Shown one piece after another: positions 2,382-7,537 of a stretch of DNA of 64,000 nt. The translations under genes were made by a program, and so were the position numbers. Below the pieces are notes generated by a model, which worked only from the letters and a program-made list of their open reading frames with translations, did no database searches and was not told the DNA's origin. This DNA is from Arenivirga flava (GTDB taxonomy: Bacteria; Actinomycetota; Actinomycetes; Actinomycetales; Microbacteriaceae): contig NZ_BSUL01000001.1 of assembly GCF_030161575.1 (NCBI RefSeq), positions 2,523,809-2,587,808 on the forward strand. Direction: 5' to 3'. Each line of letters opens with the position of its first letter. Positions within the stretch are counted from its first letter, which is position 1.

Positions 2382-3146
2382 TCAGCCCGCCAGCACGCCG
2401 TCCTCGAGCCGCAGCACGCGGTCGGCGGCGGCGAGCAGCTCGGGCTCGTGGGAGACCGCGAGCACGGCGACGCCGCGGCGCGCCTCCTCGCGCAGCACGG
2501 CGAGCACGGCGGCGCGCTGCTCGGCGTCGAGGCCGGTGGTCGGCTCGTCGAGCAGCAGCAGCTCGGCGCCGCGGGCCAGGCCCTGCGCCAGCAGCACGCG
2601 CTGGCGCTGGCCGCCGGAGAGCTCGGCGAACGGCCGCGCGGCGAGGCCGTGCATGCCGACCCGGGCGAGGGCGTCGTCGACGAGCAGCCGCTCGATCGCG
2701 CGACGGCGCAGCAGCGGGGCGCGCTGCGCCCAGGCGCCGATGGCTGCGACGTCGCGCACGGTCACGGGCAGCCGGTCGGGCGCGGCGCTGCGCTGCGGCA
2801 CGAAGGCGTGCGCGTCGACGGCCAGCTCCACGCTGCCGCCGCTCGGCGCGAGCACGCCGGCCAGCGCCTCGAGCAGGGTCGACTTGCCGGCGCCGTTCGG
2901 TCCGGCGATGACGGTGAGCGCGCCGCGCGGCACGCGCAGGTCGATGCCGCGCAGCACCTCGCGACCGCCGAGGTCGACGCGGAGGGCGCGGGCGGTGACC
3001 GCATCCGCTCGTCCGACGGCGGCCCGGTCCGCGGCATCGGGATCGGAGCGGCGCGCGGCAGCGCGCTCTGCGGCGTCGCGCTCTGCGGCGTCGCCGAAGC
3101 CGGCGTCGCGCGCGGCGTCCGGTGAGACGGATGAACGGAACGGCAC
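2382..3146 (-). CDS. aztA: zinc ABC transporter ATP-binding protein AztA-like
   Basis: 254 residues; cytoplasmic ATPase of an ABC metal importer. Walker A is GPNGAGKST, the signature is LSGGQRQR, Walker B is ELLLLDEPTTGLD, and the H-loop is VSHE. An unusual 45-residue Ala/Arg/Asp-rich N-terminus precedes the ABC domain, so an internal start is possible. GTG 3146 is preceded on the minus strand by TATGGT and six bases, a leaderless arrangement, which supports it. It is divergent from the permease aztB across a Zur-type box at 3164-3178, placing it in zinc uptake. Manganese cannot be excluded. Confidence 0.85.
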   Translation of the reverse strand: MPFRSSVSPDAARDAGFGDAAERDAAERAAARRSDPDAADRAAVGRADAVTARALRVDLGGREVLRGIDLRVPRGALTVIAGPNGAGKSTLLEALAGVLAPSGGSVELAVDAHAFVPQRSAAPDRLPVTVRDVAAIGAWAQRAPLLRRRAIERLLVDDALARVGMHGLAARPFAELSGGQRQRVLLAQGLARGAELLLLDEPTTGLDAEQRAAVLAVLREEARRGVAVLAVSHEPELLAAADRVLRLEDGVLAG

Positions 3147-3152
3147 GTCCCC

Positions 3153-3192
3153 ACCATAGCATTTGATAATCGTTATCAGTTAACGCTACGGT
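3153..3192. promoter_or_regulatory. divergent azt promoters with Zur-type box at 3164-3178
   Basis: TGATAATCGTTATCA (3164-3178) has perfect 6-bp arms and is strikingly AT-rich for this genome. It matches the form of actinobacterial Zur boxes (TGAnAATnATTnTCA-like). On the left, minus-strand TATGGT (3158-3153) sits six bases from the aztA GTG; on the right TACGGT (3187-3192) sits eight bases from the aztB GTG. One bound repressor would cover the upstream promoter elements of both genes, giving zinc-dependent co-repression. Confidence 0.8.
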
Positions 3193-4067: not shown

Positions 4068-4108
4068 CCCGCGCCCGCCCGCGCCCGCCCGTCCGCCCCC
4101 GAATGCAT

Positions 4109-4165
4109 CGAGTTGCCGCATATGGCTGCCTCGAGTCCGTCGAAGCAGCCATACGCGGCAACTCG
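4109..4165. repeat. long inverted repeat downstream of aztB
   Basis: Two 21-bp arms (4109-4129, 4145-4165) differ at one base and flank a 15-base loop. Arms start CGAGTTGCCGC. RNA from either strand would fold into a very stable hairpin, so it could end or attenuate transcription between aztB and the next gene. No T-tract follows. No second copy was found in the window. Confidence 0.75.
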
Positions 4166-4225
4166 ACGCGGCGGACGGCGTCGAGGGCCCGCATCCGCTC
4201 CAACCCACCGCCCCTGAAAGGCACC

Positions 4226-5415
4226 ATGCTCCACCGCACGACCCTGCTGATCCCGGCCATCGCCCTGGTCGCCCTCACGGGCTGCGCGGGCTCCGCCGAG
4301 CCCGTCGAGACCCCCGAGCCCACCGACGGCGCCGGCCACGGCGCCGTCGCCGGTGCGGCCGAGGTGAGCGAGCCGCAGCTGCACCTCACGACCATCGACC
4401 CCGCGGGGTCGGTGTCGCAGCTCGACCTGCTCGACGAGTCGGTCACCGAGATCGGCGCCATCGAGCCCGCGAGCGCGATGACCACCGACGGGCGCTACCT
4501 CTTCGCGAGCGGATCGGAGGGGGTCACCGTCGTCGACAGCGGCATGTGGACCTGGGATCACGTCGACCACTTCCACTACTACCGGGCGACCCCGAGCATC
4601 GTCGGCACCGTGCCGGGGAGGGTGACGCGGTCGTCGCGACCACGAACCTCTCGACCACCGGATCGACCGGCCTGTTCTTCGCGGAGAGCGGTGAGGCCGT
4701 GCTGCTCGACACCGAGGCGCTGTCGAAGGGCGAGATCGTGGAGCGCTTCCGACGCGAGCTCGACCCGCAGGCCGGCGTGCTGGCGCCCATCGGCTCGCAC
4801 GCGGTGCTCGCCGCCGACGGGCTCGCGCGGGTGCTCGACGAGGACGGCGAGCCGAGCGGCGCCGAGGCGGCCTGCATCGACCCGGAGGGCACCATCGCCA
4901 CCAGGGTCGGCGTCGTGATCGGCTGCGCGGACGGCGCACTGCTCGCCACCGCCGACGGCGACGACGTGACCCTCGAGGCGATCGCCTACCCGGACGGCGC
5001 GGAACGCGCGACGAGCTTCGCGAACCGCGAGGGGCGGCCGACCGCAGCCGCCCTCGCGGGCGACCGGGGCATCTGGCTGCTCGACACCCGCGAGCGCAGC
5101 TGGACCCTGCTGCCCGCACCCGCGCCGCTCGTGCAGGTCACCGCCGTGGACGACGACGCGGAGCACGTGCTCGCGCTCGCCGCCGACGGACGGGTGCTCG
5201 TGCTCGACGGCAGCGGCGCGCAGCTCGCCGCCACGGAGCCGCTCGTCGACGCGTCCCAGCCCGGCGTCGCGCTCATCGCCGATCAGCAGCGCGCGTACCT
5301 CGCGGCGCCCGCCGAGCAGCGCCTCGTGGAGATCGACTTCGCCGACGGCGCGCGCATCGCGCGCACGTTCGAGACGCCGACCGAGCCCGCCTTCACGGCG
5401 CTGACGGGGCGGTGA
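4226..5415 (+). CDS. AztD-like beta-propeller lipoprotein (frameshifted as read)
   Basis: ATG 4226 follows GAAAGG and encodes a lipoprotein signal (LVALTGC). The first frame runs to VGTVPG near 4615; the homologous continuation EGDAVVATTNLSTTG is one frame away. Restoring one G in the GGGG run at 4615-4618 joins them into roughly 395 residues. Repeating blades such as GVTVVDSGMWTW and GRVLVLDGSG resemble the zinc chaperone AztD encoded two genes downstream. A candidate metal site is HVDHFHYY; an acidic/His stretch DGAGHGAVAGA follows the lipobox. The stop overlaps the aztC start (GTGA), so it belongs to the zinc operon. Role as a second periplasmic zinc carrier is inference. Confidence 0.7.
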
Positions 5416-6308
5416 CCGGCATGCGCATCCGCTCCTCCGTGGCCCTCGGCGTCGCCGGTCTGCTCGCGCTCTCCGGCTGCGGTGCCGTCGCCGGCGACGA
5501 CCGGCCGCTGGTGGTCGTGACGACGAACATCCTCGGCGACGTGGTCGGCGAGCTCGTCGGCGATCAGGCCGAGGTGATGACCCTCATGAGGCCGAACGCC
5601 GACCCGCATTCCTTCGAGATCTCGGCGCAGGAGGCGGCCCGTCTGCGCAGCGCCGACCTGCTCGTCTCGAACGGGCTCGGACTCGAGGAGGGCCTGCAGC
5701 AGCACCTCGACGCGGCCGACGACGTCGAGCAGTTCGTCGCGGGCGACGCGATCGAGGTGCTGGACTATGCCGAGGGCGACGCCGCGGGCCAGCCCGACTC
5801 GCACTTCTGGACCGACCCGCAGCGGATGCTCGACGTCGTCGACGCGCTGGTGCCCGTGCTGCAGGATCTCGGCATCGCCGACCCGGACCCGCAGTACCGC
5901 GCGGCGATCGAGCAGCTCGACGCCGAGATGACCGAGGCCTTCGCCGGCATCCCGGACGACCGCCGCGCGCTCGTCACCAACCACCACGTCTTCGGCTACC
6001 TCGCCCAGCGCTTCGACTTCGACGTGATCGGGGCGATCATCCCCGGCGGCACGACGCTCGCCGCGCCCAGCGCATCCGATCTGGCCTCGCTCGTCGGCGC
6101 GGTGGAGGAGGCGGGCGTGCCCGCGATCTTCGCCGAGTCGTCGTCGCCCGACCGCCTCGCCCGAGCGCTCGCCGAGGAGGCGGACGTGCACGTCGAGGTC
6201 GTGGAGCTGTTCACGGAGTCGCTGACCGAGGCGGATGGCGGCGCCCCCGACTACCTGACCATGATGCGCGTCAACACCGAGCGCATCACCACCGGGCTCT
6301 CGTCCTGA
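5412..6308 (+). CDS. aztC: zinc ABC transporter substrate-binding lipoprotein AztC-like
   Basis: 298 residues with lipobox LALSGC. Cluster A-I metal-binding protein (ZnuA family): His in MRPNADPHSFEIS, His in SHFWTDP, His in TNHHVFGYLAQRF and the acidic residue in IFAESS are the expected zinc ligands. The long His/Asp loop of ZnuA is absent, as in AztC proteins that depend on the chaperone AztD. GTG 5412 overlaps the preceding stop; an ATG nine bases later is an alternative. It delivers Zn to AztB on the outer face of the membrane. Confidence 0.9.
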   Translation: MTGMRIRSSVALGVAGLLALSGCGAVAGDDRPLVVVTTNILGDVVGELVGDQAEVMTLMRPNADPHSFEISAQEAARLRSADLLVSNGLGLEEGLQQHLDAADDVEQFVAGDAIEVLDYAEGDAAGQPDSHFWTDPQRMLDVVDALVPVLQDLGIADPDPQYRAAIEQLDAEMTEAFAGIPDDRRALVTNHHVFGYLAQRFDFDVIGAIIPGGTTLAAPSASDLASLVGAVEEAGVPAIFAESSSPDRLARALAEEADVHVEVVELFTESLTEADGGAPDYLTMMRVNTERITTGLSS

Positions 6309-6343: not shown

Positions 6344-7537
6344 ATGCGCGCACAGCAACTGCGACGGGCCGGATTCCTGGCCCTCGCGACCGGAGCGGTA
6401 TTCGGCCTGGCGGCCTGCAGCAGCACGGCCACCGGCGGCACCGGCGACGGCGAGGCGGCCGGCGCCCGGGTCGCGATCTCCGTGCCGAACGGCATCGTCG
6501 TGCTCGACGGCGAGACCCTCGAGGTGGTCGACGAGTTCGACACCGAGGAGTTCACCCGCCTCAACCCGGCCGGCGACGGCCGCGGCGTGATGGTGACGAT
6601 GAGCGAGGGCTTCCAGGTGCTCGACACCGCGGCGGGCACCACCGGCGCGGCCGAGCTCACCGACCTCGTGTTCGAGGCCGACACCGCCGGCCACGTCGTG
6701 AGCCACGGCGGCAAGACCGTGCTCTACGCCGACGGCACGAGCGACTCGACGATCTTCGACACCGAGGACCTCTTCGCGGGCGAGGCGCTGCCCGAGACCG
6801 AGACGATCCCCGGCGAGGAGGCGCACCACGGCGTCTCGGTCGTGCTCGAGGACGGCTCGTTCCTGACGACCCGCGGCAACGCCGACGGGCGCAGCACCGT
6901 CGAGGTGCTCGACGCGGACGGCGAGCGGATCGCGATCAGCGACCAGTGCCCGGGCGTCCACGGCGAGGGCACCGCCGAGGGCGAGGCCGTCGTGTTCGGC
7001 TGCGAGAACGGCGCGATCCTCGTCAAGGACGGCGCGATCACCAAGCTCGACGCCCCGGACCAGCCGTACGGCCGGATGGGCAACGCCTACGTCAGCGAGA
7101 CCAGCCCGTTGATCGTCGGCGACTACAAGCACGACCCGGACGCCGAGGGCTACCTGCTGCACGAGGTCGTCGTCATCGACACCGAGGCCGAGACGTACGA
7201 GGTCACCGCCCTGCCGGAGGGCGTCGAGTACACCTTCCGCGACGTCGCGCGCGGCCCGGGCGACCTGGCCTACATCCTCGCCACCGACGGCTCGATCCAC
7301 GTCTTCGACCCCGCCACGGGCGAGCTGACGGACGAGTTCCCGGTCATCGGGGCGTGGGAGGGCCCGGCCGAGTGGCAGGACGCCCACCCCGCCATCAAGA
7401 TCGACGGCGACATCGCCTACGTGACCGAGCCGGCCACCGACGAGGTGCACGCCGTCGACCTCACCACCGGCGAGGTCGTCGCGAGCGTGACGCTCGACGC
7501 GGCGCCGAACGAGATCGCGGTGGCCTCGGGCCGCTGA
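6344..7537 (+). CDS. aztD: zinc metallochaperone AztD-like lipoprotein
   Basis: 397 residues; ATG follows GAAAGAGAAGG. Signal peptide ends at lipobox LAACSS. The rest is a chain of beta-propeller blades (GIVVLDGETLEVVDEF, AYVTEPATDEVHAVDL). Candidate metal ligands include EEAHHGVSVV, CPGVHGEG, GDYKHDP and DAHPAIKI. AztD proteins bind zinc in the periplasm or on the cell surface and pass it to AztC. It ends the operon: a hairpin built from an inverted 10-mer pair follows at 7544-7579. Confidence 0.85.
   Translation: MRAQQLRRAGFLALATGAVFGLAACSSTATGGTGDGEAAGARVAISVPNGIVVLDGETLEVVDEFDTEEFTRLNPAGDGRGVMVTMSEGFQVLDTAAGTTGAAELTDLVFEADTAGHVVSHGGKTVLYADGTSDSTIFDTEDLFAGEALPETETIPGEEAHHGVSVVLEDGSFLTTRGNADGRSTVEVLDADGERIAISDQCPGVHGEGTAEGEAVVFGCENGAILVKDGAITKLDAPDQPYGRMGNAYVSETSPLIVGDYKHDPDAEGYLLHEVVVIDTEAETYEVTALPEGVEYTFRDVARGPGDLAYILATDGSIHVFDPATGELTDEFPVIGAWEGPAEWQDAHPAIKIDGDIAYVTEPATDEVHAVDLTTGEVVASVTLDAAPNEIAVASGR

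Follow-up and report, generated by a model that had tools for sequence, protein, structure and literature searches.

The closest described relatives of the protein considered here are the AztD proteins of Paracoccus denitrificans and Citrobacter koseri (PDB 6ck1, 6cmk, 6n01), which belong to azt transporter operons and carry two zinc sites in one protein. In P. denitrificans AztD (PdAztD), site 1 consists of His124, His167 and His218 in the pore, and site 2 of His99, His102 and Asp104, together with the less conserved C-terminal His408 (PMC6689063). Site 2, from which the binding protein AztC receives zinc, is a hairpin with the motif HGDHx[D/H]; its C-terminal His ligand is kept in only 68% of AztD proteins. 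In Paracoccus, zinc reaches AztC via site 2 only: site 1 cannot pass it, and the role of this highly conserved site was called open by the authors of the structures (PMC6689063). The open-access papers found on AztD describe one AztD per azt system.

We analyzed a stretch of 64,000 nucleotides from Arenivirga flava (hereafter the window), which encodes an AztABCD zinc transporter: AztA, AztB, AztC and AztD all pass the NCBI curated cut-offs of the models named below. Between aztB and aztC lies an additional gene, here called X. The features are as follows.

2382-3146, minus strand: aztA, ATP-binding protein, divergent (NF040873)
3164-3178, plus strand: Zur-box-like palindrome TGATAATCGTTATCA in the gap between aztA and aztB, core of the C. 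glutamicum Zur motif (PMC2823685)
3201-4067, plus strand: aztB, permease (NF040871)
4226-5415, plus strand: gene X, AztD-related beta-propeller lipoprotein with site 2 only, frame broken
4283-4285, plus strand: predicted lipid-modified Cys20 of X (ALTGC lipobox), a Cys that is invariant in the alignment
4337-4342, plus strand: N-terminal His-Gly of X (HGxVxGAxE), present in 79 of 81 paired X proteins
4559-4582, plus strand: HVDHFHYY, an H-x2-H-x-H triad aligned to the position of AztD zinc site 2
4615-4618, plus strand: shortened G run where the frame of X breaks, one base fewer than in the nearest relative
4873-4926, plus strand: Cys pair of X (4873-4875 and 4924-4926), matching the AztD disulfide, in 80 of 80 X proteins
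5412-6308, plus strand: aztC, substrate-binding lipoprotein (NF040870)
6344-7537, plus strand: aztD (NF038015, 452 bits)

Thus aztA is divergent from aztB-X-aztC-aztD, and the start of aztC overlaps the stop codon of X. The Zur-box-like palindrome fits zinc control of the operon; with a strict pattern, such a box was found in only 15 of 82 related loci. The layout of ATPase and permease genes is similar to that of C. glutamicum cg0042-cg0041-cg0040 with the divergent cg0043, which has a Zur box between and in which cg0040 encodes a secreted protein; the comparison is with the published description (PMC2823685), and in that operon, unlike here, no gene is listed between permease and binding protein. 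A 30-nt inverted repeat at 4105-4169, between aztB and X, has about a dozen similar copies elsewhere in the genome; some of these form arrays with a spacing of about 175-205 bases, which resembles a REP or MITE family.

A sequence-only reading of this DNA had noted a second beta-propeller lipoprotein between aztB and aztC with its own His motif, and this description is borne out by the lipobox, by the match to AztD and by the His triad. All 80 aligned X proteins carry this triad unchanged, so the motif is not due to chance. The NCBIfam AztD model matches the downstream piece of X with E = 8.7e-14, and comparison of the X profile with the NF038015 family by hhalign gives a probability of 99. 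Scores against NF038015 itself are 51 bits for the downstream piece and 51.6 bits for the intact X of a relative (locus L179), missing the 400-bit cut-off. By these profile comparisons, X is a distinct AztD-related lipoprotein of the same superfamily. The structure comparison that the sequence-only reading had proposed was made on the L179 protein (model pLDDT 88.4): its nine best PDB matches are all AztD chains (TM 0.70-0.78), so that X is predicted to have the AztD-type propeller fold. A model of the AztD of the window also has pLDDT 88.4, and its best PDB matches are likewise all AztD. Among viral contigs we found no relative. In two Streptomyces plasmid loci, NCBI names aztA, B, C and D but calls X a "hypothetical protein".

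X is not a plain second AztD: the two propellers differ in their zinc sites. In the AztD of the window, site 1 is kept (H117, H162, H206) and the site-2 hairpin is absent. The X profile, by contrast, places its HGDHxH onto site 2 of PdAztD (HGDHRD) and C. koseri AztD (HGDHAD) with E about 2e-19. In a joint alignment, whose sequences are related to each other so that no p-value is given, X has the site-2 triad (H-x2-H-x-D/H) in 80 of 80 proteins and the full site-1 triad in 1 of 80, paired AztD has site 1 in 81 of 81 and site 2 in 0 of 81, and the single-propeller proteins of deeper lineages have both sites in 7 of 7. This complementary pattern is repeated class-wide in additional proteins (15 X, 16 AztD), and in 80 named loci (the best 80 of at least 589), bar two AztD motif matches elsewhere in the protein. 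Apparent site-2 motifs in the paired AztDs L246 and L253 were rejected, being positioned downstream of HHG rather than at the hairpin. At the level of aligned residues, these counts show that the two zinc sites of a single AztD are split in actinomycetes between X (site 2) and its partner AztD (site 1).

AztDs that stand without an X (orphans) nearly always keep both sites. In the joint alignment, 10 of 13 orphans have site 2, the exceptions being two incomplete or aberrant sequences (L148, which lacks only its second half, and L156, a short fragment) and L108, which has no hairpin. Class-wide, raw sequences give the hairpin in 41 of 45 orphans and in 0 of 16 paired AztDs; a count of 32 orphans lacking site 2 was traced to an artefact of mafft --keeplength. 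AztDs that lack both an accompanying X and site 2 are few (L108, L303, L306). The solo AztDs of L102-L107 and L292-L335, which have no azt transporter genes nearby, mostly keep both zinc sites. One locus (L320) carries one X and two AztDs, both without site 2.

X is like the P. denitrificans and C. koseri AztDs in its propeller fold, its disulfide Cys pair, the position of its site-2 hairpin and its place in an azt transporter operon, and differs in having site 2 only and in identity (about 20%). The actinomycete NF038015 AztD shares the superfamily but has site 1 only. The motif itself, HxxHxH, is common to X and pneumococcal PhtD, a surface protein in which it is the zinc motif and which passes zinc to the transporter lipoprotein AdcAII (PMC3842936); this likeness ends at the motif (24 residues, E = 0.0019), PhtD not being a propeller. 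X is very probably zinc-binding. The earlier suggestion of a second zinc carrier therefore stands in part: X is AztD-like and keeps its triad, and the refuting case of a structure without a metal site did not arise, but X does not simply duplicate a standard AztD next to it. That the two propellers pass zinc in series, or serve different faces of a thick cell wall, is a guess of that earlier reading. Because the annotated AztD has lost the site for transfer to AztC and X carries it, X is likelier than the annotated AztD to be the functional counterpart of AztD towards AztC.

The pairing of the two genes is widespread. Of 267 good genomes in the family of the window, 61 have an X match, as do 30 of the 85 genera; the weakest matches include a few to other propellers, AztD itself among them. 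Within this family, the fetched azt loci repeat the order of the window, with X in a single open frame, and further loci of the class agree. A survey of actinobacterial azt operons, as the sequence-only reading had advised, found at least 589 relatives in named genomes; the best 80 of these, some of which come from genomes already counted in the family survey, all carry both X and aztD (80/80), among them Microbacterium, Clavibacter, Rathayibacter, Rhodococcus, Nocardioides, Dietzia, Arthrobacter and Sinomonas. X and aztD occur together in almost every azt transporter locus of the class that was examined, and two propellers are the usual azt operon arrangement in Actinomycetes. At locus L173, which has aztA, B and C, X is absent and a short aztD-like remnant is all that lies nearby; X and aztD may have been lost together there. 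A record titled Vibrio cholerae strain 35D (L252) bears an actinomycete-type azt locus, with 56% identity to the query X, and is probably mislabelled or a contaminated assembly.

A tree of X and AztD, built with the site columns excluded, places X in a single clade (support 100/96), sister to single AztDs, most of which adjoin azt transporter genes. The paired AztDs group among orphan AztDs. Constraining them to one clade is rejected (p = 0.015, in a smaller set). In a larger tree of the AztD side, site 2 has to change state (kept or lost) three times, and well-supported branches force two of these changes. On this tree, site 2 was probably lost two or more times among the paired AztDs, always next to an X, a picture that gene transfer between lineages could affect. 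The early-branching X of locus L174 retains both sites and its partner AztD lacks site 2, which suggests that at this locus the first loss was that of AztD.

How would such a pair work? Our preferred reading, which we consider probable though far from assured, is a division of labor: X would bind zinc at an AztD-type site 2, through the triad of its HxxHxH hairpin, and would hand it directly to AztC, with AztD storing or buffering zinc at the cell surface through its pore site 1, a role that is a guess. The triad would probably be completed by the conserved N-terminal His; as the termini of AztD sit near site 2, the His-Gly of X is a candidate for its fourth ligand. By analogy with the published Paracoccus mutants, we infer that X, not the site-1-only AztD, loads AztC, because delivery of zinc to AztC is confined to site 2 in Paracoccus. 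Against loading by X stands the composition of its site: a His replaces the Asp of both solved AztDs (Asp106 in C. koseri numbering), and the C-terminal His is missing (0 of 80 X proteins has a His in the last six residues). The few AztDs that lack site 2 without an X beside them, and the X of L174 with its two sites, also speak against this reading. The Paracoccus docking model may not carry over to actinomycete AztC, because in most of the paired loci where the AztC loop was read, the loop is short and contains few His residues or none. An alternative that we judge unlikely is a heteromeric relay: X and AztD would bind each other, the hairpin of X would enter the pore of AztD, and zinc would pass from site 1 of AztD to site 2 of X and on to AztC. 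Crystals of C. koseri AztD do show a chain inserting its site-2 feature into the pore of its neighbor, which creates a hybrid two-zinc site, and the sites here are divided over two proteins of one operon that co-occur in nearly all loci examined. A relay at the interface of X and AztD, in which the pair does what a single protein does elsewhere and whose split was completed by complementary site loss that occurred more than once on the AztD side, is judged equally unlikely. The authors regarded the hybrid site as an artefact of the crystal, and in Paracoccus zinc was not passed, with EDTA competing, from an AztD without site 2 to one without site 1. We prefer the division of labor because in this mixture, which resembles the natural pair, zinc did not move from site 1 to site 2.

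The remaining explanations fare worse. A role for X with another metal, or as a scaffold or sensor, is improbable: metal specificity does not follow from sequence, but X lies in an operon with zinc transporter genes and a Zur-box-like palindrome upstream, and its triad resembles that of a known zinc donor. It is slightly more improbable still that X and AztD carry zinc as equals, as the sequence-only reading had it; both are AztD-like propeller lipoproteins of one operon, but they keep different, complementary sites. Least credible is that X is a decaying duplicate. Its copy in the window does read in two frames, through a one-base deletion near 4615-4618, and the X of locus L168 is also in two frames; in all other relatives fetched it is intact, so that the decay in all relatives envisaged earlier is not seen. 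The X of the nearest relative shares 86% protein identity over the downstream piece, where dN/dS is about 0.24, close to the aztD value and indicating purifying selection. Decay is already contradicted for the X family by this selection, by the intact copies and by the invariant triad. Because the remainder of the gene is still under purifying selection, the break in the window is, on this comparison, a sequencing error or very recent. With regard to assembly error, rpoB is intact. The same AztC-like match, with identical scores and lengths, occurs at three sites in the assembly of the window (C1:29859-30650, C1:3145978-3146769 and C2:37880-38671), a probable redundancy.

We found no earlier report of the split of sites between X and AztD in the open-access literature; a report elsewhere is possible. 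The actinomycetes offer natural proteins that have each AztD site alone, making the two roles separable without mutants. The name AztD, which implies transfer, may be misleading for the site-1-only proteins, and an unnamed gene gains a specific, checkable role in zinc uptake.
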